From Pagrus major (taxonomy: Eukaryota > Chordata > Actinopteri > Spariformes > Sparidae): a DNA stretch of 64,000 nt. The notes under the pieces are model-generated. The model was not told the origin of the DNA. It did not search any database and saw only the letters and a list, made by a program, of their open reading frames with translations. The translations under genes and the position numbers were made by a program. Shown in pieces: positions 8,061 to 51,695 of this stretch; position 1 is the first letter of the stretch; each line of letters starts with the position of its first letter. The stretch covers positions 23,150,660 through 23,214,659 of the forward strand of contig NC_133235.1 in the NCBI RefSeq assembly GCF_040436345.1, given 5' to 3'.

Positions 8061-8091
8061 GTTGGTGATGTTGACGGTTGATTCCGCTCGC

Positions 8092-8157
8092 TGACGTCAC
8101 CCGCTTCAGTTGAAAAGCACGGTTTTAAGTGCACGTGCGCAATCTGCGTCTGACGTC
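8092..8157 (-). promoter_or_regulatory. slc12a9 proximal promoter: two CRE-like sites and a CACGTG E-box
   Basis: A perfect palindromic CRE (TGACGTCA, 8092-8099) lies 32 bp upstream of the slc12a9 start codon. A CACGTG E-box follows at 8132-8137 and a TGACGTC half-palindrome at 8151-8157. The surroundings are CpG-containing, and no TATA box is evident. The motifs are seen directly; a regulatory role is inferred. CACGTG is the core bound by MiT/TFE factors, which would suit a lysosomal transporter, but it is also bound by many other bHLH factors. Confidence 0.45.
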
Positions 8158-21800: not shown

Positions 21801-24800
21801 TCGCTGAGACAAGGAATTGGCAGCCATTAAAGAATTTAAAGGAAAAATTCAAAATATCTGACTTGTACATTCTGAATATTTGTGCACAAACATTTTTACT
21901 ACTTGGTACTGAGACTGCACATACTGTTAGTTTGCACAATGCAGCATTCGGACACAGATTGTCTCAGTGAGAAAGCGCTCTGTCCACAGAAAACTGGACT
22001 GTGAGATCTGCTGCCTCTCTCTTTTCTATTGTTCCGCGTAAAGTGTCACAGACCAGTTGGGTTGGTGAATATGGGCATGCTGTTTGCAGTTTAGTGCCAT
22101 CAGTTTGAAGGATTTTTTGAAATTACACAATGTTACCGTACATCACCATTTGGTGCAACTCTCATGAGAAGTTTTCCCCGTGCTTTATGACGAAAACTCA
22201 CACATTTGAGTAGAGTTTGACTATCATACATATATCTGCGTATCTCAGCATCTTTCTCTCCCTCTGTCGCTGTCGCACACACACATTCACACACACACTC
22301 ACACATAAAAGCGCTGTCTCTTCAGGGGGGTCTAGTTCCTTATAGTCAGCATTCTGTCCGTTCTCCCACACAGAGGCTGGCGCGAGTCCATTTCACGTCC
22401 TGTCACTTCCAAATAGTGCTGTTACCTGCGCACTATTGAACGGGTCACTGCAGAGGCTGCAGACAGAAAAAAAATCTGTCAAATCTCAATTCATTTGACT
22501 GGTAAAATAGACCACGCTCACTGCAGAGTGTGTTCACTAACCGGAGAGCTACATTTTCAAAATGGCATAGCTGCCATTTAGAGGATACATTATACTTGAA
22601 CACTCTGTTATACAACATCTCAGAGGGTGTGGGGCTGAGTACTTTGTAATAATAGACATTAGTTGACAATCCAGAATTCAGGATTTAGGGAGTTGTATAT
22701 TATATCATTGTCCTTAATACTGACTATTATTAGATTTAGATGCATTGACACATTAGCAGTATTTCAGTGCTGTAGTGTGAAGATCGTGTGAACTATGTTA
22801 TGGTTGGTTAGTTTATTCTTTAATGATGTATGATATTTAAGAAAATTACCATATGTTTTGTACGTTAGTGGCTACAGCTGTCAGCTAGGGCTACCACTGT
22901 TATTCTATAATTTATTAAAGCATCTATAAATAATTATAATCAGTTATTTATTTTCTCTTGACTGACTGACTGGTTGATCATCTACTTGGTTCAGCTCTTC
23001 TGTCAAATAGAGTAAAAAAATTCAGTATTTTTTTTTCTAAATTGAGGACCGCTGTGGCTCAGGAGGCAGAGCAGGTCGTCCATTAATCACAGAATTGGTG
23101 GTTCGATGTCGAGGTGTCCTTAAGCAAAACGCTGTTGCTTCTGATGGAAATCACTGCCGTCGGTGTGAGTGGCAATATGTTACAGTTGTGCCAAAGCTAC
23201 AGTTGGGTACAATTGGGTGCTGGTAACGATTCCTAACGGTACCTGTTTTTTGTTATTTTAGTTGTAAAAAAATGTTTGGTGACTCATGATTCACCAAATA
23301 CATTGTAACACCGACATTGATTCAAAGGAGGAAGCTCTTCAAAGCCCTAAGTTTCAGCCCCAAAGTACTTTCGGTACAGTACCCTTTGAATCCGTACGTA
23401 ACCCGTGGTAAGTGTACCTAAACATGAGATTGGTTTTGTGTTTCCATACAGTAATCTTAAATGTAGGCGGGGTTCTTCTTGGCTCTGTTTCAGGGTTAAC
23501 CCCTTTCAGAAACTGATCTTGACTCTTGAGAAACTCATTAATTTATTATGCGTTACTGCTAATCCTTTACAGGGTCGCGGGGGGCTGGAGCCGATCCCAG
23601 CTGACATTGGGCGAGCAGCGGGGTACACCCTGAACAAGTTGCCAGACAAACCACCATTCACACTTACATTCGCACCTTCGGGCAATTTAGAGTGGCTGAT
23701 TAACCTCACTTGCATGTCTTTGAATTGAAGCCAGAGTACCCGGAGACAATCCACGCGAGCCTGGGGAGAACGTGCCAGCCCCTCACAGAAAGGCCATGCT
23801 AAAGAGACTTCTCCATTTTAATTTACAGACACATGGACCTATACTGTACATTAATGCCAGACTGAACACGTACAAACTACCAGCCTTTTATTCTTAGCTC
23901 TCCTCACATTCACCATCACTCTGCTGCTGCTTTGCAGGTAGCAAGACAAAAGCCTACTGAAACAAAGAACACTGGGAAATCCTACATCACAACAAGATGA
24001 CTCTGGTTGAACAATCAGTGCTCGGCAGTTATTAACTCCACCTTTTTAGTATTGGATTAGTGTGCAGTGTAGGAGATACACTAATAATAAACACAATTTA
24101 TCAATCACTGGGATTAATAAAACACTCGTTAATGGGGCACCACCTCCGATGTTTTATCTATTTGAATAATCCGGAGGTAATTAATCAAATTCGACTAAAC
24201 AAGGTTAACTTGTATCAATTCTAATCAATTTCAGAACAATTTATTCAATCTCAAAAATGAAGAAGTGAGATTCTACACATATCCATCGGTTCTCCACATT
24301 AAAACAAACCTGCACAGACAACGACGTACGGTTAAATTTGTTTATTTACTAAATAAATCAAGGTGAATAAATGAAAGGATGATTCAAACAAACAATAATG
24401 ATAACATAAAATGTAGAGGCTAAATGATCATGGTAATGAATGGATGGAGATGAGCGGATGGTAAAGTCACGAGTCTGGGAAGCATTCAAAGATTACTATA
24501 GTAATTTTGACACTAACGAGACCTAACCGGATTTCTTATTAATTAAAGATTACTATGAATCAAAAGAAAAGAGACACCACCAACTCAAGAACATGCGTGC
24601 GACTCCAGCAGTGTGCGTGGGTGTTTAGCCTACTTTGCCTGAAGACTGGGAGATGTTCACCACTTTGGACCTCTCCGGAGCTGATAGCTTGACCTCGGCT
24701 TGAGGTGTCGGTCCAGGAGAAGGAGCTGAGTCGCGGATCGTCTGCGGCTTGAAGATGCCGCTCGAGCCGGATGGATGTCGCAGCTCGTCCGGTCTCCCAG

Positions 24801-27800
24801 TGGGTTTCTCTCGTCCAGGTGTCGGAGGGAGAGCGCAGTCTGTCCAGTACCCGGCAGGAAGTCCCGGTCCGCTGCCCAGCGGGATGGCACCGCTCGTGAG
24901 CGTTGAAGGCAGGCCGGTCGGCTTGGCAAAATGTCTGTTCGTTGCAAACCGTTCACACGGTTTGTTGATGCAGGCAATTACTGCACAATGTTATTAACGC
25001 TGGTGGTCGGATTAAAGGTCTTCTTCTTGCATGGAGTGATGGCTCTGAACTTTTGATCGAACTAATTCAACTTTCTTGACGAAAATAACTAGAGAATAAC
25101 GCTGGCCGGGCGAGTCCTCAGTTATTACTCAAAACAAGACGAATTAAGTCAAATTAACTTCTACTGAGTAAAATAATGATACTTAGCAAAACAAAACAAA
25201 AGCACTTAGAGTCAGTGCGTCCTCAAATTAGGGTATTGAGGTAAAAATCGCACGTGGTCAATTGTGCGGAGATTTCTGCCTAAGAGCGTGTCGCAAAAAT
25301 ACAAAAAGTAAAGGTTTAAAAGTGAAGTGAAGAAAAATTTAGAGAAGAGAGAGACAGAATAGCTGTCCCTTGGTTTTTGTAGTCCATACCAGAAGGCGGT
25401 TCCTAAGGGCGGGCTGACGGTTATTACTGTGTATCATATCAATCGTCTACACTTACGAAACTCATAATTAAATTAAACCGATTTAATGTTTCGCGATCGT
25501 GCTTCACCTTTCTCAGGACCTTACCATGGCAAAATAAATGGACTTAATGAAATAATATGACCTGATTAAATTCGCTGAACGAATAAAAGAAATTAACACT
25601 GGATCAAACATGAAAACACTTAAAGGTACAGTAGAACTGATAGAATCTGACCACATATATAAGCATTTCTTATAGTTCTAATACCTGTAAATGAAGAAAC
25701 ATATTACAGAGTTTTAATCAGGAAAACATATTAAAACATAGATATCTTGAAAGTTTAATTTCTTTGTACCCGGACTCACCACTGGAGGGCACTGTGGTTC
25801 CACCAAACACATGACACAATTAAACATTAAATTTGATTTTAGCCAAATTTCATCACAGAGAAACGGGAGAAAGATCAGTTTTATGAGCTTCTCTTACTGA
25901 CCCTTAATCTGTTGGAATTAAGAGAATGAGATCCTGACTTAATGGTTAATTAGAAATGGTCTGAAATCTGGAGGAACACAGAGACCATTTGGTGTGGAAT
26001 GTGATCCAGATTACCTCCAGACGGGTAATAAATTCAGACCTGAAGTGTTTGCATAGAACAAGTCAGAAGGTTTCCAGTGTTCTCTTAAAAGCTAATGTGT
26101 GCTTTAGAAGTTAGAGGTGAGGAGAGAGACACAGGTAAAGAGAGAGATACTCTAAAACAAAGAAAGAAAAACATTTGATGTGAGTTAATTTACATATATA
26201 AAGACTCTGTATTGACACCTTCCGATGGCCAGTTGTCCCTCCTGGTAAGCTTCACAGAGGCCTCCCCATGACCTGTGAAAGAGGATATGTGTGCTTGCAA
26301 GGGAGAGGAGGTTCATCCAAAGGCTTTGAGTTGTAAATTAATTAAAAGTGTCTTCATATGAAGTATTTACAACCAAGAAAAACACTGTCCTCTCATGCCA
26401 GGCGATAAGATGGCGCCCCTCTTCCTGTAGAACTGCTTCATCCAGAAAAACAGAGGTGATAACAACACAGAGCCTCAACATCAAAGGGGAAGGAACACAG
26501 GCCCGAGTTCCTACATATCCCCCACTTCGATCTGAATGACCGTAGTAGCGGGAACTTTGGATCGATGAAGTCATGATGTCCCTCGTCGAGGAAACTGAAC
26601 TGGTACACTTCATGTTCAGAGTTGGTGTCTGTCTTTATCATGTGCTGAGGTCTATTATATAACAAAAATCGTATATATATCAAAAGAAAAAAAACGATAA
26701 TAATACTGACGACCCTAACTCTTCCTAAGGGTTAATAGGAGGTGCTAATCTTATAGGTTTACAGGGCCTATACTAAAGCTAGTAACTGTCGTCAACTAAC
26801 TGTAAAAGGGTCGGAGTCATTACTACCACTTGGTCACTGCTCTCACTGACTTCATCAGCAACTTCGAGTCCAGTACCAGGGTAGTTTGGTGCTGACCTTC
26901 CACGCCTGACTAGTCGAGCCAGTCCGTTCGTGCATCTGTCAAGTTTACACTGTAAGACCTGAGTGCGCTTGAGGTAGAAGAAAGCTATGCCGAAAGTCAC
27001 TAGATATCCTAAGGCTACGACGCATGCTAAGACCGTGTCAGGTGTTGACCAAGCGTAGGTGATGGGTTGACTGGGGGTGTTACTTTTGGAGACTATTTCT
27101 TTAAGTACATCATCGACGGGGGTTATGTCGATGGTCTGGGTACCCTCGTACTGCACTTGGGTGATTGTGCTTGGGTTTAACTCGAGTGTGTGCTTGCTGA
27201 AGAAGTCAGACACCTCGATTTCGCTTTCATACTGATTTGGATCTAAATGATAGAGAGCTAGGTCTTCAATGTGCAAGATAGCGTTCTCTGGCACGCTAAT
27301 CCATAAGGTTTGGTCGGGCAAAGTTAAGCGTGTGGCAGTGTCGTGTTGATCATATGACAAGGTAGCTGTCCTCGCTGGGGTGTTAACCAACCAGCGACCT
27401 CCTACAATCTCAGCCTGAGTCGTAAGGACTTGGGATCGGGGCGTGATTTGAGTCGGGCAACGAGAGTCAGATGCCATGGGTTTGAGTCCACAGATCCCGT
27501 CTGTGTTGTCTCGAATGAATGGTTTACTCGGACATAAGTAGTGAATGTCTTTCGTGAGAGTACACATGCGCAGGTTTGGGGCCAAATACAAATCAGGGTT
27601 GTTGTCGTGATATGCAATGAGCGACGGAGTCTGCACTTTAACGTGTGTGTCGCCTTGCCAAAATCCTACATTCACCACGTCTTTGAGCCGGTAAATGTTT
27701 TCTGCAGAGACTATTGGCAGATTGATGATAAAGCCTATTTCTCTTCTCTCAGGATTGACGTATATGGGGACAGCACTGCCTAATGTATAAGCTAAGTGAG

Positions 27801-30800
27801 CCTGGATTGGTGTGACTACATCCCTGGTAGTGGTGGACAAAACGTCCTGTACCAAAGACAATGGAATAAGATATGGTGGAATCTTACCCATTGCTAAGCT
27901 GTCCACTGAGGATCCAATGTCGCGCAACATATCTGTCATTAACATGCTGACCAATTGTGTGTGGGCATAGTCGACCGAGACTACAGAGAGGAGCGTGTTT
28001 ACTGCGTTGATGGTCTTATTAAGGGCTTCACTATGGGTATTGACTACCAGAATAGTGCCCTTCAGTGATTGCCCAATTGTTTGGAGCTCCTCCTGTTGCT
28101 GGAGAATTTGTTTTCTGATATCTGGCATTTCAGCCTGTAGCTCACCTACATGACGCCTTACAGTGGATAAACTGACAGCATTGACTGACGAGAGTCCCAA
28201 ATTGAAAAGAGTTCCGACAACAGCTGCTGCTGTCAGAAGTCCTGCAATAAAGCGCTTAGGCCTGCGACTAAGCCCACTCAGCTCTGCCTGTGTGACTGTG
28301 AACTTTTGCAACTGCTGCAACATGTGAGTGGTGTCTGCTTCAGCGTGTTCTATTACCTCCCTGCTCCACCTCTGGCCTGCCCAACCGGTAAGCTCGGCTG
28401 TGGTTGGAACGTTCCTTCTACATACCTCCCGGGGGTTCAGTCTGACAAACACCTTTTGTGTGTGCAGACGGCAGTTGGTAATGAGGAGTCCTGATTGTTC
28501 CTTTAAAACGATTCCCGAGTTTGGTCCTGGTTCGACTATCTCAGGAAGGGCAGCGGTTATTACCGAACCGAGGGTCAGGAAGATTAGCAGCCACGTCATC
28601 CTGATGAGGAGAACGCACATGATTAGGGACACCATCAAATTACTGTACAATTTAGACCAAAGGGGTAATCGTTTTAGATTACCCCCACTTTGAATCAAAT
28701 GGTTTGGGTGAGTTGAACACTGTACTTAGTTAGAAAGGTTAAGTTAGTAGGTTAATTCACACCACTTTGTTTCTCAAGTCAGCTTTTGTAAATGACACGA
28801 ACAACAGTGAAATTTTGTTTGAGGGAAATATTTTATTTATGCTTTTTCGGTCTGGCACCTTTAAGTTTTTAAAGGATTTGTTTGGTTTTTCTTTTCTTAT
28901 TTATGACCTAATAGAGACATTGGCGTCCCCGTCAATTCCCATGGGGGTTTTGTGTGGTTTAATCTGGTTGCGATGGACCCATTTAAGCGTTGGCTCTTTC
29001 TTGCCTTTGCTAACCTTGATCTGGTACACAACGGGTGAGAGTTTTTCGGTGACTACATAAGGACCTGTCCAGTGCGGCAGAAGCTTGCGGGCAAGCCTCC
29101 CAGCGTTCTGGTTGTCTTTCTTAGTCAGGGGAGCAAAAATGTAGTACCACACCTTGTCCCCCACTTGGAGTTCGTCATGGGATGCTTTTTGGTCGTAGTA
29201 GGCCTTGCGTCCTTCAGCGCTTTTTCCCAAATGCTTCTGGGCGAACGCGAAGGTGGCTTTGAGGTGTTCACTCAGATCGGTCATATACTGGTGAGTGGTA
29301 TATGCCGTGGCGATGTTAGCCTCGCCTGGCTGGTAGAGCAGGTGCAGTGGAAGCGTCATCTGTCTACCTGTCATCATCTCGAAAGGGGAGAAGCCCGTTG
29401 ACTTGTGTGAGGTGGCTCTGATGGCCATCAAGACCAACGGTAGCTTAACGTCCCAGTCTCTTTGGTTGAATGCTACATACTTTCTCAGTATGCTGATCAC
29501 TGTTCGGTTTGCCCGTTCTACTTGGCCTGAGGACTGAGGGTGGTAGCTGATGTGGAGGTCAGCTTTCACACCCAGTAGTTGCCAAAGTTGCTGCATGACA
29601 TCAGCAGTGAAGTGTGTTCCTCGGTCTGAATCGACGCGACTTGGCAGGCCGAACCGTGAGAAGATGTGGTTCATTAGTAGGTAGGCGGTTGTTTGAGCCG
29701 TGTCATTAGGGGCTGGCAAGCCTTCCACCCACTTGGTGAATGCACAAGTGACTGTGAGGAAGTACTTATTGCCTCTGGTCGATTTGGCTAACGGTCCTAC
29801 CCAGTCGATTTGGAGGTTTGACCAGGGGAAAGAGATGCCCCTTCGTTGTAAGGGAGCTCTGTGAAGCGGGTTTGCCGGTTGGAACTGGCAGCAAACTAGA
29901 CAGCCTTTGATGTAGTCTGCTACATCTTTTTGCATGTGTGGCCAATAGGCCACTTGTTGGAGTGCCTGGCATGTTGCTTTGACTCCTTTATGTCCTGCAC
30001 ACGGAGAGTCATGGGCATGCATCAACATCACCCCCCTGTGGCTCTGAGGCACCACGAATGCAGGAGAAGTGAGAGCATCGGAGACATGCACAAGGAGGCC
30101 CTTGACGATCTGCAGGGAAGGACGTGCATTATACAGGTGTCTCAAGCCTGGAACGGAGTCGAGGTCAGCTGAGGAGATAGCATGGTTCAAGGGGTCAGAC
30201 AGAGACAGGAAAATCCGGCGGATAGCCGGATCAAGGGCTTGAAGTGCTACAAGATCGGTGTCAGTGAAACGGGGAGCAACTGAGATAGCTGCCGACTCAG
30301 AAGGGTTACTGAGAGGAGCGGCTGCTGCCTGAGCTCGAGTGACAACGCCAACCATCGGGTCGGGAGGGTTGGGAAGAGATTCTGGGTTGAACTGCCAAGG
30401 AGTTCCATCCAGAGCACCTTGTTTGGCCAATGTGTCTGTCAAGTCATTGAGCTCCTTGTCCTGTCCGGGGACACGAGAGTGGCCTCTGACCTTTTTCCAG
30501 TAGACTTGCATGTCGTGTTTGTCCACCAGGTGATCGCATGCCATGAACAATTCTTTGTGTTTGACTGGTTTCCTGTTGGAGGTAGTGAAGCCGTTGCGTT
30601 TCCACACGGGCAGGTGACAGGAAAAACTCAGACGTGCATAGTTAGAGTCAGTGCAAATGACAAGTGTTTTCACTTCGTGTAGCACAGCCATCTCTAGCGT
30701 GATCAGAACGCCTGCGATTTCGGCGTATTGGGAAGTTTGAGAGCCCAGATTGAACCGTTGGGGTTCATTTGGAGTGTTGTGGACCCACACCAAACCTACG

Positions 30801-33800
30801 CCTGCTCGAACTTTAAGTTCATGGTGGAAGGAGCACCCGTCCACATAGGCGGTGACCATGTCTTGGCAGACATTTTGGTCAAAGTAGTGGTGGCGTGATG
30901 GTTCTGTAGGTATGGGGTCTGGGATCAGAGTGGTGTTTAGGGGCATGTCGTTGGTGCACCGACAGCATTTCGCAAGCCCAGTGCCAAGGGGCGTTTTGTT
31001 GTTCTGTGCGTATCGCACTTCCATGTCAAAACTTTGCAGAGCCATTAACCAAGATGCGACTCGAGCATTGGTTACCACACCTTCTCTGATCCGTTGACTG
31101 TTGAGGAAGGTTACTGGTTGGTGGTGTGTTTCCACAATCACTTTCTGGCCACCAAGATAGTTAGAAAAGTGTTTGACAGCCCACACGGTTGCCAACAGTG
31201 CTTTTTCACAATCAGTGTATTTGAGCTCGGGAGCCAGTAGTGTTTTGCTCGCATAAGCCACCACGCGTTTGTCACGATCGTGAATCTGATACAGGCCTGC
31301 ACTCATGCAACCAGTAGAGAATCCAACTTCCAGGTGGAATTCTTTGGTGCAATCTGGATAGGCCAAGCATGGGGCTGTACAGAGTTTGTCTTTTAGGGCT
31401 TGCATCGCCTGTTCTTGTGGCTCACCCCAAGCAAATGGAGTGTCCTTTTTGAGCAGTTCTGTTAGCGGTTTGGCCAAGTCTGCATAGTTCTCGATGAACT
31501 GGCGGGAGTAGTTGCAAACCCCCAAGAAGCTGCGGAGCTCAGATATGTTTGTGGGTGCCTTGATGTTTGCAATACCCTGAACACGCTCAGCTTGAGGCTC
31601 GACGCCGTGAGATCCTACAAGAAGGCCCACGTAGTTCACTTTGGTTTTGCACCATTGACACTTTGAAAGTGAGACCTTCGCTCCAGCTGCTGTGAGCTGC
31701 GCAAGTACATGGTCCATTTCCTCCAGGTGGGAGTCCAGATTGGGACTCCGTATCAAGATATCGTCAACATATATCAAAGTGCCACGATCAAGAGCATCTG
31801 GGCATGCTTTGTTCAAGAAGATGTTGAACTCGGCGGGTGAGTTAGCATAGCCGAATGGGCACCTGGTGAAAGTGTATTGCCTGTTTGCGAAGGTAAAGGC
31901 TAATTTGTGCTGGTCCTCAACATGTACTGGCAAGGTCCAGAACCCTGATGCTATGTCCATGGAGGAGAAGTATTTTGCGTCCCTGACTTTAGGGAGCTCT
32001 TGTCCCAGTTGGGTCATGGGCCATCTGGATAATGGGACTTGCTGGTTGAGTTTACGGTAGTCAATGGTCAGTCTCCACTTTCCATTTGGTTTTAGCACTG
32101 GCCAGAGAGGGGCTGAGTAGGTGCTATTGCATGGTCGGACAATACCCTTATCCAATAGGTCATCTATGATCTCCTGTACAGGTTCATAAGATGCCAGTGG
32201 GATCTTGTATTGTCGCACATAGGTTGGAGGTGCGTCATGTGGAGTTGGGATGCGCACCGTGTGGACTGTGGTCAGACCACAATCAAGAGAGTCTTTCGCG
32301 AAAGATGTCTTGTATTTACAGAGGACATTGCGAAGTTTTTCACGTTCCATTTCATTGTTTAAGGCATCGGCCTGTGTTATCACTTGTTCTACTTGGGCTG
32401 TGAACATTGCCTCTGATTCCTCTTTAGTGTCAAGTGTGTTCACTGAGGACATTTCTCTGAGGTCATTCAAGGATGACTCGGAGGTGGACCTCTGTGAAGA
32501 GTCAAGAGACAATGTGTCGACCGTTTGGATAACCATCTCTTCGTGGTTGGCAAGGTCGATTCGACAGATAGCATCTCCAGTGAGTTTCAAGGATGGGAAT
32601 AAGGCGATAGCCCTTGAGGGTTTAGTGTACACTATATCTCCCTCCAAGTGGTTTTGGAGCAAGGCAGGAGGCATAGGCCCTATCACTGGGATTCTCAATT
32701 CGAAATCATGAAACTTGGTACTGATCATCCAACCCAAGGAGGTGGATTTTGGAATCAGTATGTCTTCTGTGGTATTGTTATGTACCAACAGATGGGCTGA
32801 TCTGGAGCGCAGATTCAACAAGGGCGTTGCTTCAAGAGACAATCCTAGTTCGAAGAACAAGGGAGAGGGTTGGAAGAACGCTTGTGAATGGTTGGGACGT
32901 TGGCCGGGTTTTACGTTCATGTGTATGGCCACGTTTCTGGTTTTGGCCGGTGCAATCATGTGACGTTCATTGATTACCTGGCAAGCTTCAGGGATAGTTT
33001 GTCCTGACTTCATGTTTTCAGAATCATGAGTGATGTCCTCATCCTGGGTTTTTGTCAGTGACCACAAGATGTTATTGATCATGTCCACCTGAACGTCTAA
33101 CCGTGCCAGCACATCGCTGCCGACATAGACTTGATGTGGCAGATCGGGAATGACCAAAAAGAGATGAGTCAAGTTCCTCTGGTTCCATTGCATCTTCAAA
33201 GTGCAAACACCGTCAGCAGTCCATGTTGACTGTGGCACGGGGTCTGAAGGAAAACGGAAAGGTTTCTTCACAAGCTCAATCTTTGGATCTTTTTGTGACA
33301 ATGACTCGTACAACTCTCGGCTGATGGCCGATTTGTCGGCCCAGAGGGCCAAGACCACATCGTCAAAGTTGATGTCTTCAAGTTTGATGCCGCTTATGAT
33401 CTGTGGGCAGAACTCATGTGTCATGGGGGAGTTGGTCAATGAGCACAAGAAGTTGTCTCGTTGGGTCAGAGCTTCTTTTCGAGGCCATGTCAATGTTGGC
33501 AGAGTGTCTTCACTTGTATCTGGCTCTCCGTACATGTCGGTTGGTCGTTGTTGACCAGCGACGGCATCGGGTGCCAAGACATCTGTCTCCAGTGCATAAC
33601 ATTGAGCTTCAGTGGCTCGGGGAAGATCTATGGGAAGAGGGTTGCGGACCTGTGCCCAAATCTTCAAGCGTTTGAAGTCAATCAGTGGCTCAAATCGGTT
33701 GAGGAGATCTTTACCGATGAGAAGAGGGATTGAATCAAAGGAGGACACGTACACGGGGTGGACGAGATTCATCGGTCCAATAGTGAATTTAATCACTGCC

Positions 33801-36800
33801 CTGGTTGTCAATGTAGTGCCAGTAGGCGAGTAAGGTTGGACTTCAAGTGAGCAGTGTTGCAGCTTCAAGTTCCTGTTTGATTGGTTTGCCATTGCTCGTA
33901 GTTTGTTGAAAAGCCGTGGTGACATGAGAGTCACATCTGCCCCTGTGTCAAGAAGTGCTTCATGTTCAAGCTCATTTTCAAGTGTGGCAGAAAGATAGAA
34001 CTTGCGAGCAACCCCCTTTTCTTTAAGATCGCCCAAGAAATGTTGAAATGGTGATTCGCCCTGAAAGATTGGCGGGCCTTCATTGGGGGGAGTCTCGTTT
34101 GAATTTAACTGAACCACAAGGATTGCGCTAGAGGCTGGCTCTCCACGCGTTTGGACCGATTGTTCAGATGCCTCATTCTGGACCACTGGGTTTTGGTTCT
34201 GAGGCAGTGCCTGTTCTGGTTCAGTGAAACCTGAAGACCACTCCTCTTCAATAACCACGTTGGGTTGGTCGGATGAGGTTTCTGGAGGAGAAGGAGCTGG
34301 CTCCTCAGGGGCTGTCAAGCGAGCAGCCACTGAGAAGAGGTTAGCTTTCTCTTTATCCTCTTGGCGCATGCGTTCAATCATCCGTTCGATAGCGTCAAGG
34401 TCTTCTTTGCTCATACCTGAATGATTCAACTTACCACTGGTGTTTTTCTTTGTCGTTTCCTCATCAGAAGAGCTTCGGTGCTGTCTGTTCCTGGATGGAT
34501 AGCTTTGAGACCCACGTCTGTCATGTTCCCTGCCATTATGATTTTGACGACTTTTCCATTGGCTTGATTGGGATTTGTTTCGGTGGGAGTCAGAAAAGTG
34601 ACGTTTAGCACCAAATCGGGGTTGGTACTGACTTTTGTCAGACCGAAATGTTTGTGGGTATTTTCGACCTGACTCAGATCGGTGGGGTGAAGACTTTTTC
34701 TGATCCTTTGGAGGTTTGTCAGGTTTAGAAGAGGATTTGGCTGGCTGGAGCGGTTTGACACCTGAAGCTCCTTCCAACTCCAGAGGAGGTGTCTTAGTAG
34801 AAACACTCAAGATATTTGTTTCTGTGGACTTGATCATTGTTTGTCTTTGTTTAGCAAAACCTTTGGTGGCCAGTTCACGTAGTTGTTGGCTAGTGAGTGT
34901 TTCTGGACATGCCATGACACCAAGGTGGTGACTGGTCGTGGGATGGAGGTTTTGTACAAACAGTGACTTGAAGTGTAACTCTTCCTCCATTTCTGTCTCG
35001 TTCCTGGGTCCGAAGTAGGCTTCATGGAGCCTCTCATAGTACTCTTGAGGGGATTCTTGCCTTCCCTGTCTGACAGCTAATGCGGCGGTTAGGCCTGTTT
35101 TTGGTGTGTAGCTTTTAAATTCATCTGTTAGTGCTCTACTGAGGGCTTCATAGCTCTCTTTGACACGGCGAGGTTGTCGCTCGATGAATTTGCTGACTCT
35201 CTGATTAGAGGTGACTCTAATTAGGTAGATTTTGTCATCAACGGTGGCGTCTGGGAATCTCCTCAGATAGAACTCTATGTCTTTTAGATAAGCGCTGGTG
35301 TCGTGAGTGCCACCAGGCTTGGGTTCGAAACGGTTTATGTTTCGAGCCATTTTGTCTAGGTCCCTGTCGGAGGGACTTCGCGGATAGTGCGCGCTTGAAC
35401 GAGGGGGATGTTGAGGAGAGGTAGACCTTTTATTTAGGTCATGTAGGTCATGTAGGTCCCTGTCAGTCCGATTGCGGACAGCAGGACCTATGGGCGACAA
35501 AGATCGCGGCGAGGATACGCCTATTTGAGCGTCTCTGTGGAATCTGCTCTCTCTCCTTTCCTCACGGGCGCTTGCATTTGCAGGCGTTCTTTGGAATGAA
35601 CTATACTCAAGAGAATGTTCTAATTCCCTTTTAACCTCATTGAGCTCTGCTTCTTTCTCCATCTGTTCAAGATGGGATTTGTCAGCTTGGGCTTTGGCCT
35701 CTGTTAGGTCCCGTTGCATGTCTTGAAAAGTTTTTCTGTCATTTTCTCTGGCCCTGTCCCAGACTTTGAGCTTAGAGTTTAGATCCTTATTTGCTTTGGT
35801 TGCTTCTTCCAAGTCTTTGTTAGCCTTTTGAAGATCTCTAGTTACTTCTTCAAGCTCATATTCCTTTTGATCTAGCTCTAGCCTTTTGGCGTTTAGGATC
35901 TGTTTTAGCTCTGAGTTTTCGTTCTGCAGTGTAGCTTGTTCATACTCCTTTTTATCTAGCTCTAGCCTTTTGGCGTTTAGGATCTGTTTTAGCTCTGAGT
36001 TTTCGTTCTGCAGTGTAGCTTGTTCATACTCCTTTTTATCTAGCTCTAGCCCTTGGGCTGTTAGGATCTGTTTTAGCTCTGAGTTTTTATCCTGCAGTGT
36101 AGCTTGTTCATCCTCTGATGCTTTAACTTGAGACTCCAGCTGTTTATTGTAATCTTTTGCTCTAGCTAAAGATTCCACTGACTCAGTTAAGGATGCCTCC
36201 ATTTCCTCATGTTGCTTTTTAAGAGCTCTGTGGTTTTCTTTTCTGACCCTCATTTCAGCTACAGCTTTGTCTAGCAATCCATCTCTATGTTTTTGTTGCG
36301 CAGCCATAACAACGATCATGCTCCCTAACATTTTCTCTCTGGTTTTTCCTTTCATTGGTTCGGTTAGGGATTGGCATATTAGCGCGGTCATTATATTTTG
36401 TAGTTCATTAGGGTCGGCTTTCTGGATGTCGTCTACGTAACCTGGCAGCAAATCTGTTGTGAGCTCCTTTATTACTGCATCTTGTTCGGCTAGGGGATTC
36501 AAAGTTGCGGTTAGGGGATTCAAATTTGCGGCTAGTGAACTGCCAGGACTCTTTGGATCGGTCATTGTTTAAGTTTGTTTTGAGAGAGGGAAAAAAATTA
36601 TAAATAAATAAATAAATCTTTAAATTTATTTAAATTTTGTTTTGTTTCATCTATTTATTTTATTTGGGCTTTAAATGTTTAATTGTTTTCAATTAGAGGT
36701 AGGATTCACCTTTATTTGAATTAACTTGTGAAGTTCAAAACAAGTAAGTGTTTGGATTTTAAAGGATCTAACAGCTAATGTGTTAACAACAAAACTAAAG

Positions 36801-39800
36801 TATTTGATCTAAATGTGGCTTTCAATTGAAACTACTTGGATGTGTAGTTAACAGCTTAATTATTTGACTTGCATGAGCGTAGCATCAGAGTCAGATTTCA
36901 AATAGTACACTAAAAATAAAATTTTTAATTGACTTGGATTGAACTTGTTGAATCTGGTTAAAGTTGTCAAATTTGTATTTAACAGCTAAATTAAAATTTT
37001 ATTTATCTGAATAATGAGACACACTAATTTACTATGGTAGTTATTGCAGTATTACAAGTTTCCAATAATACAATTTAGCAAGTATCTGTGTAAAAAAAAT
37101 TTAATTTTGTTTATTAAAGCTGAAGGATCAAATTCAGTTAAACAAGTTAGCCAGCAGAGTATGCTGTTTAGTCGTATTTGTTGTTAACAGAATCATTCAC
37201 CATGGGTGTTGTCACAAATTTGATAATCACAGATTTGGTCATTAGAGGAAGCTATCACAAATTAAAAATCTTTTACCGAATCGTCCTATAGAGGAAGCTA
37301 TCACAAACTTTGAGGTTTTAACAGAGTCGAGCAACAGAGGGCGCTAGTACAAATTTAATAAAGTCGAGCAACAGGGGGCGCTATTACAAATTTAGGAGTT
37401 TTAATAGAGTCGAGCACTAGGGGCGCTGTCTCGGAATTGACTTTTAACAAGGCTACCTGAAGAAGAGTCTAGAGGAGGGACTTTTTAGCTCCACCCACTG
37501 ATATACCCCCTTGTGTTAGCAGGATTTAGCTCAGTGGTGATTTGGGCTCTGAAGCGTTCACTTCTCAGCTGTAAAAAGGGCAGCAGTTGAGTTCACTTTT
37601 CACACAAACAGAATCTGGGCGCGGCGGCCGGCACTGATTTCTTATCACAGACAGCTTTCCAGCACATCAGAAAACATTCAACCAGCAACTAGCATTGCAT
37701 TCATTTACTTGTGTTTCCAAAATTTGAGCTGATAGAGGTTTTCTGTCCTCCTTTACACAGTCAAATATACTGTCTTTGATCGGATGGTTGCCACAGCAAC
37801 CGATCTTGATACTACGGGAGTAGATCAAATAAAAGCCTCTCACTGTCTATACAGCTGTTTTCTGTTTAGGTAGCTAATCTAAGTCAGAAAACACGAGGGT
37901 CTGAGCAAGTTACAAATATTCCTGGAACTATCGCAGTAAATACAACTTCATCTCAGAATGAATTTCTAAGCTTTGGCACAGCGCAACAGCTCATGATTCA
38001 TCAAACCGGTTAAATTTAGAAGTGTGCGGCGACACTTATGCATGCAAATAAATCACAGACCTGGTTCAACACAGCGTCTGTACATGAGATATTAACGCAC
38101 GGCGGCGTTTAACAATTTTAACTCACAGATCTGGTGATTACAGCGCAGAATCTGTACATGAAGCATTAACGCACGGCGGCGTCAAACAACCTTTTAACTC
38201 ACAGATCTGGTGATTACAGCGCAGAATCTGTACATGAAGCATTAACGCACGGCGGCGCTGAACAACTCTTTAAATCATAGGTCTGGTGCGACGCAGCATC
38301 TACACATTAATTTCCAACATGCAGCGATGTTGAAGGCTCTTTATCACACGCGGATCTGGTTACAACGCAGCATCCATACACATTAATTTCATATTAAGCA
38401 GCGCGATCACAGCTCGGCGGAGTTTATGCTCACACACAATTCAAGGTGTATACAGTCAAGAATATAAAGTTAAGTATCGCATTAATCACTCAGTGGACAG
38501 CTAAACAACATGAAACAGCTTGGGTTTTGATTTTAAAACCGATGTTTGTCTGTACACATCAATTTAATGCAGAGAACTGTGGTTTTAGGTGGCCTCGCAC
38601 GGACGGCACCATATAATATGTAGGAGATACACTAATAATAAACACAATTTATCAATCACTGGGATTAATAAAACACTCGTTAATGGGGCACCACCTCCGA
38701 TGTTTTATCTATTTGAATAATCCGGAGGTAATTAATCAAATTCGACTAAACAAGGTTAACTTGTATCAATTCTAATCAATTTCAGAACAATTTATTCAAT
38801 CTCAAAAATGAAGAAGTGAGATTCTACACATATCCATCGGTTCTCCACATTAAAACAAACCTGCACAGACAACGACGTACGGTTAAATTTGTTTATTTAC
38901 TAAATAAATCAAGGTGAATAAATGAAAGGATGATTCAAACAAACAATAATGATAACATAAAATGTAGAGGCTAAATGATCATGGTAATGAATGGATGGAG
39001 ATGAGCGGATGGTAAAGTCACGAGTCTGGGAAGCATTCAAAGATTACTATAGTAATTTTGACACTAACGAGACCTAACCGGATTTCTTATTAATTAAAGA
39101 TTACTATGAATCAAAAGAAAAGAGACACCACCAACTCAAGAACATGCGTGCGACTCCAGCAGTGTGCGTGGGTGTTTAGCCTACTTTGCCTGAAGACTGG
39201 GAGATGTTCACCACTTTGGACCTCTCCGGAGCTGATAGCTTGACCTCGGCTTGAGGTGTCGGTCCAGGAGAAGGAGCTGAGTCGCGGATCGTCTGCGGCT
39301 TGAAGATGCCGCTCGAGCCGGATGGATGTCGCAGCTCGTCCGGTCTCCCAGTGGGTTTCTCTCGTCCAGGTGTCGGAGGGAGAGCGCAGTCTGTCCAGTA
39401 CCCGGCAGGAAGTCCCGGTCCGCTGCCCAGCGGGATGGCACCGCTCGTGAGCGTTGAAGGCAGGCCGGTCGGCTTGGCAAAATGTCTGTTCGTTGCAAAC
39501 CGTTCACACGGTTTGTTGATGCAGGCAATTACTGCACAATGTTATTAACGCTGGTGGTCGGATTAAAGGTCTTCTTCTTGCATGGAGTGATGGCTCTGAA
39601 CTTTTGATCGAACTAATTCAACTTTCTTGACGAAAATAACTAGAGAATAACGCTGGCCGGGCGAGTCCTCAGTTATTACTCAAAACAAGACGAATTAAGT
39701 CAAATTAACTTCTACTGAGTAAAATAATGATACTTAGCAAAACAAAACAAAAGCACTTAGAGTCAGTGCGTCCTCAAATTAGGGTATTGAGGTAAAAATC

Positions 39801-42800
39801 GCACGTGGTCAATTGTGCGGAGATTTCTGCCTAAGAGCGTGTCGCAAAAATACAAAAAGTAAAGGTTTAAAAGTGAAGTGAAGAAAAATTTAGAGAAGAG
39901 AGAGACAGAATAGCTGTCCCTTGGTTTTTGTAGTCCATACCAGAAGGCGGTTCCTAAGGGCGGGCTGACGGTTATTACTGTGTATCATATCAATCGTCTA
40001 CACTTACGAAACTCATAATTAAATTAAACCGATTTAATGTTTCGCGATCGTGCTTCACCTTTCTCAGGACCTTACCATGGCAAAATAAATGGACTTAATG
40101 AAATAATATGACCTGATTAAATTCGCTGAACGAATAAAAGAAATTAACACTGGATCAAACATGAAAACACTTAAAGGTACAGTAGAACTGATAGAATCTG
40201 ACCACATATATAAGCATTTCTTATAGTTCTAATACCTGTAAATGAAGAAACATATTACAGAGTTTTAATCAGGAAAACATATTAAAACATAGATATCTTG
40301 AAAGTTTAATTTCTTTGTACCCGGACTCACCACTGGAGGGCACTGTGGTTCCACCAAACACATGACACAATTAAACATTAAATTTGATTTTAGCCAAATT
40401 TCATCACAGAGAAACGGGAGAAAGATCAGTTTTATGAGCTTCTCTTACTGACCCTTAATCTGTTGGAATTAAGAGAATGAGATCCTGACTTAATGGTTAA
40501 TTAGAAATGGTCTGAAATCTGGAGGAACACAGAGACCATTTGGTGTGGAATGTGATCCAGATTACCTCCAGACGGGTAATAAATTCAGACCTGAAGTGTT
40601 TGCATAGAACAAGTCAGAAGGTTTCCAGTGTTCTCTTAAAAGCTAATGTGTGCTTTAGAAGTTAGAGGTGAGGAGAGAGACACAGGTAAAGAGAGAGATA
40701 CTCTAAAACAAAGAAAGAAAAACATTTGATGTGAGTTAATTTACATATATAAAGACTCTGTATTGACACCTTCCGATGGCCAGTTGTCCCTCCTGGTAAG
40801 CTTCACAGAGGCCTCCCCATGACCTGTGAAAGAGGATATGTGTGCTTGCAAGGGAGAGGAGGTTCATCCAAAGGCTTTGAGTTGTAAATTAATTAAAAGT
40901 GTCTTCATATGAAGTATTTACAACCAAGAAAAACACTGTCCTCTCATGCCAGGCGATAAGATGGCGCCCCTCTTCCTGTAGAACTGCTTCATCCAGAAAA
41001 ACAGAGGTGATAACAACACAGAGCCTCAACATCAAAGGGGAAGGAACACAGGCCCGAGTTCCTACAGCAGGTACCTCAACAGAAGGATAACTAAAAAACA
41101 GGCTAGCATGGAGCGATTCTTTTTGGTACTATTCATGACATTTGATAATGGAAACACAAAAATAACTGGTTTAATGTGTAACTGAACTGCACCAGGCTGG
41201 TTGGTCGAAACGAGGCTTTAGGTTGGCTGAAAAAGCATCTGGTACAGATAATGTACTTTTAATGGAAAGAGCCTTGTTAGCTCCAACAACAGTTTATCCA
41301 ACTAATTAAATAATTACCTAAAGATGTCCATGAAGTTGTCAATATATCACTTAAAGTTTTGCCATCCATGGAGGGTTCAGCTTCTTCTGCACTGGCTGCA
41401 GGCGTGCCAACATCAGCTGTGACTGCAGTTGGGGAGCTGGCTTTCAGGCTTTCACATGGTGCACTCTACAGCTTTAGATATATTTTGTTTTTGGCTACGT
41501 GTTAGGTTAGACGTCTCGCCCTGGCCATCTTTGCGTTTTTGAAACCTACTAACAAAACCTACTGTCGAAACCACAGACAGACTTTTAGTGTCTTTTTTCC
41601 TGCTGGTTAGACTCCATTAATACGCATTTTAAACCTGTTGCAACATAATCCCTGTGGATGAGTGTCATGATGTACACAAAACAGCCAGCTCATCCCGTCA
41701 AGTCTTTATCTGACAAGCAGCTTGATCCTTCGGTCTCTCTGACATCAGGACGCCCGACCCAACATGATCAGAGTGTGTGTTGGTGTATTTTTACTTGTCT
41801 GGGTTTCACACGTGTGCAGGTCTGCCTCGGCAGCATCAAGGTTTTTCATGTTTATTTTAACGTCTGTTTGTGTATGTGTGTGTGTGTGTGTGTGTCAGCG
41901 CATGAGCTCTGACTCATAGGTAACTACTCTAAAGGCAGCCTCCGCTACCTATATTAATGCAAATGTAGACAGCGGGATGAGTCAAATTTGTCGCTTCCTC
42001 CTCTAATTCAATTTTCAATCTTGTCCCTGGAGGGTTCAGGGCTGAGATTAGCCCGAGTGCTTTAGTCCTCCTGTTATTCCCCTGGTCTCATCAATACACA
42101 CTCAGCGCGCGTTTAAGTAATCACACTGGCACAACACTACACGGCAGTTTAAGGGTCTAAAACATCCATCTTTCTCTCTCCGCAGTGATGGCTCCCTTCA
42201 CTCTAAAACCCTGCAAAATTTGAAGAGATTAAAATCGTCTTATGAATATGTATTATTAAAGAGAAACGAGGATGAAAGTTGTAGATGTTCAAGCCTTCAT
42301 CACTAGAGTGTCAAATATTTGTCCTTGCTGTCGCCTCACAGTGAATAAATTATGCTGCAGTGCCTTGGGAATTGCTGAATAATAGAGAACTTTTTATCTC
42401 ATCTGTTGTGCTAGGCCTGCACATGGCCTGATTTAGAAAGGTGGCAGAGTGAGTGATGTGGCAGTGAAGTGGGGGGTCTTACGCAGTAGAGAGATGGTGG
42501 ACGTGGTGCTCTCTCCATGATGCTGAAAAGTTTTCAATCTGGTAAATGAACCTGTGCAGCAAGGCGTGTTGTAGGGTGAAATATAATTGCTGCAGGAAAG
42601 CTGGAAGGGTGCGCCGCTTGTGAGTAGTCAGAAGTGTTGAAAAAATAAACATGTATGAGGTGCTTATCCCTCGTCAATGTCTTCCCTGCAGTAGATGACT
42701 GTCAGCTCTCCCCCTGTGCGGAGAAGCGGTGAGTAGCGCCGGCAGGAAGCAGAGCATTGTGCTGCTGTAAACCAAACGAGTAGCAAGACGAATTATAGCA

Positions 42801-48800: not shown

Positions 48801-51695
48801 GTTCACAAGAGTTTGTGCTGCTGGGATAACACACTGCTGTAGCACAATGGAGGAACACCTGAAAAAGATTGCAAGTTGCTTATTTGTCATTGAAACTCCA
48901 GACTGTCACTTAAGGACTTTTAAAAAAAGGGACTGATGTGAATAATTGTACCGTGTCTTTCTGAGGAGAATAGGTGTTTTGATCCACAAACGTGAACATT
49001 TTAACAGCAAAACGTTTGTGGTGCGTTGGATAGAGGAGCCCAGAGGAGCCATCTACAGGCACCACTGTGGTCAAGTAACGGTCATCATGGTAGGAACACC
49101 TGGAACCAACAAGAGCTCATGTTAAACATAATGCAAGAATTTTTTTATAACCATGTTTTAAGAGACATGTTTTTATATACCCGTCAACCAGAATGTCCCA
49201 CTGTGGCAGGCTGTTAGGATTAGGGGAAGAAGTGGCCCAGCAGTGCTCCAGGTTCAGGACGATGTTCGGATCAGACCTCTCCAGGATGTTCACCTCCACA
49301 TAGATTGGCTCCCTCAGCACTTTAGTGATTGGATAGTCTGCTGGAGTGTAGAAGGAGCTGTACGCTGCCTCGACTGCAATCAAATGGTCCAGTTTTAGTA
49401 AACAAAAAGATCCTGGACGAGCTGGTGTGACAAGGCTCTTGACCCACTCACCCTCAAAACATCCCTTCGAGTGACATTGTCCGTTGCCCAGTTTCAGCTC
49501 CACTCTGAGGGGTCCTAGAGCAGCAACAGGCATGGGTGGAGGAACCGCATTCACCTCCATGACAAGAGCCTCCACCGCTGTGCCAGAATATCGACATTGG
49601 AACAATAACCTGTCAGGAGAGCATGAGGACTTTTACATGTCAGGAAAGCTCAGGGTCACAAAAGCAATCAGAGATTGATTTTATGCAAACTCACTCAAAA
49701 TGGCTGTCCCTGGTAATTGAGCCTCTGGGTCCAACTCCCACTTCATATGAAGAGGACATGTGGTTCTCATATACCACGTAATCCTCTTCCTCCTGCAGGT
49801 GGAAACAGTCAAACAAGAAAATTGAGAATGTTGAACCGATAACATGGCAAAAGTTGTTTCAGACTTCTAAAACTGGCTTTTTTCCCCCCGCCACTTTAAG
49901 TCAGTACTTTGGGTTTTGGACCATTTAAGTTGTAATGATAGGCTGGACTTCAACCATGTAAGTGCTCACATTAGCTAAAGTAAAAACTGCACTAGCTACC
50001 TTTAATGTTGTACCACATGCAGTCACAGGGAACTGGAAGATGGCAAAAGCAGCTGTGAAGTCGACAGGGGTACAGGAGGGGTCGTTTGTTTCCAGCAGGC
50101 TGACTGAATCCACATCTATGTGGGGCACAGTGGCATCTCGAGCCACCACCACCACAAACTGGCCATCCCTGGTACACTGCACAGTCACTGGGTGAGAGGA
50201 AAACAGATGAATTGCTGTGTTGCAGTGCATATTTACACTCATCACGTAGCATTTGCACGTGAGGCTATAGACACTAATTAAATACCTGCTTTCCCGTAGT
50301 AGCACTGCCGCCCATCAAAGCAGCAGTTTATGTTTTCACATTGCTCGGCTGTGATATCTTCAGTCCCGCACTGGATCTTCTCATGCCGCTCCACCTGGCA
50401 TTTATCAAAGGGAGCTGCAGGTGGAGGGACCTTCGGCTGTTGTGGTTGGTGTTTCTGCACGGGCAGCATCCAGTGAGGCTGGGCAGCAACATCACAAACC
50501 AAAACAACAACCACCACAACACTAAACAGACGCTGGAAAAGCTCCATTATGGTATTAAGAGCTACACACTGGCCAAAACTGCAAAAACAGCACCTCTGGC
50601 TCAGACGCAGGCTTTATACATGATTGATTGTGTGTAGTTTGCTAAGAAGTCCGCCTCTCATCGTTAGGAGTCAATTGTGTGGCAGCCCTGCAGAGTTAAT
50701 CAGCTGGGAGCTGACAGGTGGAGCTTATTGTCTGCTCATCTGTCTGAAAAGAAGTCATTACACGACTGTTGAGTCAAAGCTGAGTGGGGTGTTTTTTTCT
50801 AAAAGAGGCTTCAGACGAGCTGTGAACAGTGTGGAGCTGCAGGCAGTGAACATTCTGACACCTGTCCCTGTTTACTGTGACCTGATACTGTATACATCTT
50901 TTAACTGAAAAACCTGCTGCATCACTTTGACACTTCTTTCACTGCCTCCCACTTGCACCACCTGTATAAAAGCTGTCTTTTTCTGTCTTTCAAAAACACA
51001 GATGTATGGGCGGTACACCCAGGAGCTGGGTGTGTATGCCAAGGAGGAAGCGGCCCGCCTACGGGATGGAGGAGTGCGGGATGGTGGAGGACTGCGGAGG
51101 AACACCAGCGTTCGTAGTCGTGCTGCAGATCTGCTCGAGTATGAGAAAGACCCCTGTGCAAAGTGCCAATGTAAGTGATGATCATGCAACACAAGAGCGT
51201 GTTTGCCGAGACAAAGTGTGCAGGTAGTGTTGAGCTCCGACATGCTGTGAAGGTCAGAGCACAGCAGTGTTTTAAGTGCTCATAAACAAAGTGGATCTGG
51301 TGTGTGTGCGTGTGTGTGATCCAGCCAAGTGAGATAGTTGTGTGAAAACATTGACTTCTTAAAGTACAGCAGAGCGGCTACTTGACACAAGGGAGCAGGA
51401 GAGGATGTGAACACGATTAAATGTGACTGATCAGAGCAATGACCTCCAGCCAACAAGGGCTGTCTCAATGTCAGACAAAGAAAGCCCCCTCTGCTGGCTG
51501 CCAATGGCCCGCCGCATACACTGTGTGTGTGTGTGCGCGCGCCTGTGTGTGTGTGTATTTTTGTTTGTGTGAACAGAACTCAGATCTGAACTGTCAGATT
51601 ATTTTAAGTCTAGTCGTCCCAGATGACTGCAGATAAGGGAGTGGCACCAGAGGAGAGCTTCACTTCAGATTCATGTACGCAACAATAAAGTGATA

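Follow-up and report, generated by a model that had tools for sequence, protein, structure and literature searches.

Lokiretroviruses, for which the name Lokiorterviridae was proposed, inform how retroviruses arose from long terminal repeat (LTR) retrotransposons. According to the accessible part of their description (PMC9040795), they have vertebrate hosts, a tether derived from a degenerate RNase H followed by a new RNase H, an envelope protein (Env) resembling the fusion (F) protein of mononegaviruses, and a reverse transcriptase (RT) that groups beside those of canonical retroviruses. A 64,000-nucleotide stretch of the genome of the fish Pagrus major (hereafter the window; positions 23150660-23214659 of contig C21, in an assembly of 785.9 Mb and 25 contigs) holds a 17.0 kb provirus that shares these features. 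It is very probably an endogenous lokiretrovirus that integrated recently and whose own protein-coding frames are all open. In this reading a second protease domain, PR2, is catalytically dead but kept, and short relatives of the element are probably moved in trans. Such a young member, with all frames open, displays the whole plan of the lineage. The accessible part of PMC9040795 makes no mention of a second inactive retropepsin domain or of a single gag-pro-pol frame, both of which distinguish the present element.

Other described systems share part of this plan. The Odin retrotransposons of sea anemones also combine a tether with a second RNase H but are env-less and have cnidarian hosts (PMC9040795, same part). 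The zebrafish BHIKHARI elements Bik-1 and Bik-2 are lokiretrovirus relatives with an N-terminal coiled coil in Gag and many young copies that lack pol and need help in trans; for Bik-1 this help had to be assumed, as no pol-bearing copy was seen (PMC10996621, available sections). In the fish genome analysed here, by comparison, the ten short copies compared keep gag, the first protease domain (PR1) and remnants, and they share the genome with a complete coding copy that has near-identical relatives.

The foamy viruses (Spumaretrovirinae) have the closest solved RTs. They differ from the present element in that their RT groups with canonical retroviruses and that they express pol separately. 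Their Gag, like the one described below, presumably lacks a CCHC knuckle.

Organization of the provirus

The provirus occupies positions 24068-41066 of the window on the minus strand. Its 5' LTR (38619..41066, minus strand) and 3' LTR (24068..26515, minus strand) are each 2,448 bp long, start with TG and end with CA, and show no mismatch (100% identity). They are flanked by a 4 bp target-site duplication, GCAG, on the left (24064..24067) and on the right (41067..41070). A primer-binding-site-like stretch that starts with TGG lies 7 nt inward of the 5' LTR (38594..38611, minus strand), and a purine-rich, polypurine-tract-like stretch adjoins the 3' LTR (26516..26532, minus strand). The original prediction had listed the LTR pair, the target duplication, the polypurine tract, an uninterrupted gag-pro-pol frame and env within 17.0 kb; all of them are present, and its description of the provirus as complete and apparently intact holds for the frames and the LTRs. 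At assumed substitution rates of 3e-9 to 1e-8 per site and year, the absence of differences between the LTRs sets an upper age of about 61,000-204,000 years. Identical LTRs could also result from gene conversion or an assembly effect; an assembly artefact is less likely because related copies on contigs C1 and C5 each show a separate 4 bp duplication and a near-identical LTR pair.

Counted from its first ATG, the single gag-pro-pol frame (28901..36565, minus strand) runs uninterrupted for 2,554 codons. Searched in pieces against Pfam, it matches models of protease (below cut-off), RT, two RNase H-like RT models, RNase H, H2C2, integrase core and p58-C. The order of domains is Gag, PR1, a 485-residue stretch reaching to RT, RT, tether, RNase H and integrase. 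The RT carries YVDD (31319..32218, minus strand; RVT_1 E 1.7e-28) and is followed by the tether (31028..31429, minus strand), the second RNase H (30413..30859, minus strand), an integrase with H2C2 zinc domain and DDE core (29537..30052, minus strand) and the p58 C-terminal domain of the integrase (28955..29065, minus strand). Of 120 RT-hit proteins, 26 contain matches to both the Gag core and RT, among them the lamprey model P0059; in seven of these 26 the gag match is shorter than 75 residues, and some are gene models in which an annotated splice may join frames. If the single frame is general, the lineage has neither a stop nor a frameshift between gag and pol.

In the proposed cycle, transcription from the LTR would yield a genomic RNA that is translated into one Gag-Pro-Pol polyprotein, while Env would be made from a spliced RNA. 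PR1 would cut the polyprotein, and RT and the second RNase H would jointly copy the RNA, with the inactive RNase H 1 as tether. The resulting DNA would be inserted by the integrase, and entry would take place through the F-type Env.

A probable retropepsin domain without active site

PR1 (33674..34015, minus strand) is a retropepsin with the DTG motif, recognized by a Pfam gag-asp_proteas match below cut-off and by profile comparisons. Downstream of it, within the stretch that separates it from RT, lies PR2 (33056..33451, minus strand), where DTG is replaced by ALW. The PR2 profile aligns with that of PR1 over 105 columns (probability 98.2, E 5.7e-14), while none of 13 controls, run with reversed or other profiles, exceeded 0.5. 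The first PR1 profile included four basal rows intermediate between PR1 and PR2. Repeated without them, on only the 38 rows having both domains, the comparison was weaker but held (96.5, E 8.6e-10); the alignments covered 103-105 columns, and reversed controls of the pair stayed below 0.4 (0.3 or less in the repeat, where all six reversed comparisons gave 2.2 or less). PR2 likewise matched a profile of 13 gypsy proteases (96.9, E 2e-10), and the PR1 model alone matches the PR2 region at E <0.01 in 24 of 37 rows. Note that the hidden Markov model of PR2 also matches PR1, and PR2 counts obtained with it were not used. Against the PDB, a PR2 profile of 12 sequences found 12 chains at E up to 1, ten of which are retropepsins (DDI1/DDI2 and relatives, ASPRV1). 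These matches are informative because of their retropepsin identity, not because of their significance taken singly.

The profile likeness to the retropepsin fold is thus not accompanied by the catalytic D-T/S-G motif. Of 39 distinct PR2 rows, 29 show ALW at the DTG position and one has the Asp. Among 56 distinct PR1 rows, which include four basal rows with DLG, 28 carry DTG and 13 DTA. PR2 occurs in 43 of 66 rows, fish and frog relatives among them. Selection on the domain was estimated from the ratio of nonsynonymous to synonymous substitution rates (dN/dS), with a decayed copy on contig C4 (L030, 92.5% identical to the window) as reference. The ratio is 0.15 for PR2 (12 synonymous, 7 nonsynonymous changes). 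PR1 has 0.20, the capsid core 0.18, the domain after PR2 0.21 and two linkers 0.37-0.39. Under neutrality, 7 nonsynonymous changes out of 19 have p of about 5e-4 if 75% of sites are nonsynonymous and 0.003 at 70% (0.0001-0.003 over shares of 0.70-0.78). With the closer copy on C18 as reference, PR2 gives 0.13 and the capsid core 0.58, from 6 changes each, which are too few to weigh. PR2 thus appears, from its profile and substitution pattern, to be a retropepsin that lost its active site and is kept by selection.

Several observations weigh against this reading of PR2. No Pfam protease family is found in any of the 12 members searched, its PDB matches are not significant singly (best E 0.043), and the comparison with the frog NYNRIN-like proteases reached only 29.5. 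Furthermore, among 66 rows (the window and 65 proteins with protease and RT matches) the spacer from PR1 to RT is 400-520 residues long in 43 rows and falls outside this range in 23; in the lamprey model P0059 a single protease is followed by a spacer of 208 residues, and several fish rows are also short. Some of these short spacers may be annotation splices. The Pfam result would suit another beta-rich domain, such as a dUTPase, that is no relative of proteases, and retroviral dUTPases are a conserved domain once taken as protease-like and initially named pseudo-proteases (PMC4531489, accessible part). This identity is very unlikely for PR2, which aligns with retropepsins over about 105 columns and whose PDB matches are to DDI1/DDI2-type and ASPRV1 retropepsins, with no dUTPase among the 12. 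A duplication remnant devoid of function would account for the active-site Asp missing in 38 of 39 distinct rows and for the ten short copies compared, which do without PR2. Its retention in fish and frogs speaks against a remnant, as do the dN/dS values and the neutral test; because the latter two show purifying selection, a useless remnant is disfavoured and we consider it unlikely.

As for the origin of the retained retropepsin domain, the basal rows of the clade to which the element belongs (P0051, P0053, P0071, P0073) have a single detected protease-like domain. It carries DLG, a motif between the active DTG and the dead ALW, and its scores with the PR1 and PR2 models lie within about 11 bits of each other. 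In a protease tree (119 columns, long branches) these rows group with PR2 with 99/92 support, and a clade joining PR1 to the gypsy proteases is rejected only at p 0.025 of the approximately unbiased test (p-AU).

PR2 may act as a structural or regulatory partner of PR1. The regulatory role is favoured because Gag and protease would be made one to one, without a recoding step. A more specific scheme, tentative and on balance doubtful, is that the history of the protease parallels that of RNase H: the copy next to RT would have lost catalysis and become a structural or regulatory domain, with the active copy outside, and PR2 would pair in cis with PR1 and keep it inactive until assembly. If this pairing is true, protease could be made one to one with Gag, without frameshift or stop, and with no premature self-cutting. 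PR2 would be the second case, after the tether, of an enzyme domain in the same polyprotein kept for non-catalytic use, and it raises the question of how protease is controlled when gag, protease and RT share one frame. Judged by titles and abstract starts, none of the papers listed on proteases of LTR elements or on lokiretroviruses describes a duplicated or inactive protease; the original lokiretrovirus paper may mention one.

The domain between PR2 and RT (32669..33007, minus strand) is also conserved. It resembles the stretch upstream of gypsy RT (probability 89), and no match to it was found in PDB or Pfam.

Placement among retroviruses and gypsy elements

The original prediction had proposed a lokiretrovirus-like identity on account of RT and integrase, a second intact RNase H and an F-like Env. 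A first RT tree was built from 112 rows: 106 of 119 RT-match proteins (at least 88% covered), five stretches from the PDB and the window. The loki clade and the canonical retroviruses are united in it with 98.9 in the Shimodaira-Hasegawa-like approximate likelihood ratio test (SH-aLRT) and 100 in the ultrafast bootstrap (UFBoot), and its topology is the same as that of a second tree, computed for a 68-row subset under a site-heterogeneous model. There the window falls within a clade of fish, lamprey and frog rows (UFBoot/SH-aLRT 97/96). Its sister group consists of foamy and gamma RTs together with NYNRIN-like elements (100/99), and both groups together are split from 25 gypsy-like rows (100/100). 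For the 68 rows the tree program warned of long foamy and gamma branches that join each other. The named hosts in the clade of the window include teleosts, a lamprey (P0059) and frogs (P0046, P0069), which fit the published host range of lokiretroviruses. An integrase tree of 56 rows agrees weakly (SH-aLRT 87 for the loki group; its seven canonical rows do not form one clade). The phylogenetic check proposed for the element thus places its RT outside Ty3/gypsy and beside canonical retroviruses, with integrase giving weaker agreement, and one of the two outcomes that were to refute the prediction, an RT inside Ty3/gypsy, is not seen in the RT trees.

The two RNase H domains provide a second line of evidence. 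In RNase H 1 of the window, Gly and His replace the Asp at two catalytic positions. The first of these is non-Asp in all 44 loki and all 11 NYNRIN-like rows and Asp in all 34 gypsy rows; the second is Asp in 34 of 34 gypsy rows, in none of the 11 NYNRIN-like rows and in none of the 41 printed rows of the 44 loki ones. Alignment with gypsy is uninformative for the glutamate and the fourth position of RNase H 1. In RNase H 2, each of the four positions has its acid in 43 of 44 loki rows, and in the window the domain keeps D-E-D-D (RNase_H E 1.2e-20), which bears out the predicted second intact RNase H. The element therefore has the degenerate RNase H followed by a new intact one that characterizes lokiretroviruses, and not the single active RNase H of Ty3/gypsy elements.

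The env gene (26779..28635, minus strand; 618 codons from the ATG) lies in a frame other than that of gag-pro-pol; its open frame spans 26779-28725, with the first ATG at 28635. The product has an RPKR site, a hydrophobic fusion-peptide-like stretch and one C-terminal membrane segment. Likeness to the mononegaviral fusion glycoprotein, as predicted, is found in 27 of 38 family members, which match Fusion_gly PF00523 at E 0.01 or better (best 1e-8).

On the other side of the balance, the loki clade has an SH-aLRT of only 52 (UFBoot 96) in the 112-row tree, the Env of the window itself matches PF00523 at E 1.4e-4, below the Pfam cut-off, and PDB searches with the Env sequence and with the Env profile found no F structure. 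The trees contain no labelled lokiretrovirus or epsilonretrovirus sequences, and the assignment to lokiretroviruses is by published description. The wider position of the lineage also has uneven backing: a placement of loki and Odin elements beside canonical retroviruses is supported in PMC9040795, while the union of lokiretroviruses and Retroviridae has only 35-45% support in the tree of PMC12440569 (both as far as their accessible parts go).

An ordinary Ty3/gypsy element with a captured env would explain why RT and integrase match general gypsy-type Pfam models and why the same search yields gypsy-like rows. It is extremely unlikely given the full support for the RT split from gypsy and the degenerate first RNase H and the second RNase H of the window, which are absent from the 34 gypsy rows. 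A canonical member of Retroviridae, such as an outlying spuma- or epsilon-like endogenous retrovirus, would agree with the foamy viruses being the best PDB matches of RT. It would also agree with a Gag that is charged, coiled-coil-like at its N terminus and without CCHC knuckle, as is the foamy-like Gag of Bik-1 in the available sections of PMC10996621. This too is very unlikely: the RT lies outside foamy and gamma (no epsilonretrovirus is among the rows), which join the NYNRIN-like elements apart from the loki clade, forcing foamy viruses into that clade is weakly rejected (p-AU 0.039), and Env is F-like. The element, which fits the published definition of lokiretroviruses by its sequence features, is a new member of a known lineage.

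The Gag features mentioned above are as follows. The charged N-terminal part contains a tandem repeat of 84 bp x 3 (35856..36115, minus strand) and gives weak coiled-coil-type profile matches (best E 0.005); the search of Gag against the PDB returned coiled coils and chance matches only, with the same best E. A capsid-like conserved core follows (34769..35383, minus strand). A CCHC knuckle was looked for in Gag and none was found.

The NYNRIN-like rows are called canonical here for their grouping with foamy and gamma RTs. In the 112-row tree this holds for P0078, P0081, P0082, P0083, P0085, P0087, P0088 and P0094, two of which are from named birds; P0083, P0085, P0087 and P0088 are absent from the 68-row tree. 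In 8 of 11 rows of this class, Ser and Gly occupy the RT active-site aspartate positions. A profile scan of viral contigs gave 19 pattern matches, none of them a relative, and a motif scan gave five contigs as candidates.

Genomic copies, mosaic LTR and neighbourhood

The genome search that had been suggested for further copies revealed three other full-length RT copies as well as short gag-PR1 copies. For the RT piece all candidates were scored and gave six matches, namely four full-length ones at 99-100% identity and two pieces that presumably belong to one broken copy. The same four copies carry the env piece in full length at 99-100% identity, and one older copy has it at 88% (with 40 of 80 candidates scored). 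The C1 and C5 copies have two LTRs each, which differ at 2 of 2,400 and 0 of 2,363 bases, respectively; at the right end of the C18 stretch compared, the LTR match is short, about 610 bp.

The LTR piece has at least 57 matches (40 of 719 candidates scored). Eleven LTR pairs lie 8.7-10.4 kb apart, compared with 14.55 kb in the window, and define a short family. The interiors of ten of them were compared. All ten lack the region equivalent to 30410-33562 of the window, from PR2 to RNase H, with one common join, and all keep gag and PR1. Their open frame has 1,196-1,203 codons in nine copies and 812 in one, and dN/dS against the window, for two short copies, is 0.12 for capsid and 0.09 for PR1. 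Judged from these frames, the short family seems still to make Gag and PR1 and to rely on others for RT. Such copies without RT are probably mobilised in trans.

The LTR of the window is a mosaic of the long and short families. In LTR columns 1-750 it differs at 3 of 745 sites from a short copy and at 32 of 696 from C1, and in columns 751-1500 at 53 of 615 and 7 of 638, respectively (Fisher p 9e-8 and 1e-10, with block borders chosen after viewing the data). The leader of the window is 98.9-99.3% identical to those of C1 and C5 and 94.5% to that of C18; its stretch nearest the LTR is 90.6-93.8% identical to the ten short copies. A patch resembling the short family is expected if both RNAs are packaged together, and one that ends at the LTR edge is expected from strand transfer between two packaged RNAs. 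The pattern suggests that long- and short-family RNAs were co-packaged and left a mosaic LTR; gene conversion between integrated copies is a possible alternative source of the patch. Long and short families with a mosaic LTR in one genome would constitute a natural record of packaging in trans.

Older material is present as well. One or two copies at about 10.09-10.13 Mb of C4 are interrupted; their pieces of RT, gag and env share 87-92% identity with the window. Partial gag matches of 81-82% with common query bounds 612-999 occur at 17 sites, perhaps a further short family.

The 5' leader, of about 2 kb ahead of gag (36569..38618, minus strand), contains two tandem-repeat arrays, one of period 76 at 38077-38288 and one of period 37 near 37303-37427. 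AATAAA occurs in the 5' LTR at element positions 2170 and 2271. Open frames in the LTRs overlap each other in three frames and are taken as chance.

The original prediction located the provirus in a fish gene. This is not confirmed, since among open frames of at least 70 residues in the window no gene was seen with exons flanking the provirus on both sides. The neighbouring genes are a permease-like transporter gene (758-8096, minus strand; AA_permease in three of five frames tested), which we take to be SLC12-like and specifically SLC12A9-like, a zona pellucida gene with trefoil, ZP-N and ZP-C domains (49117-50613, minus strand; three of three frames), and a CLC chloride channel gene (62477-62734, plus strand; one of two frames).

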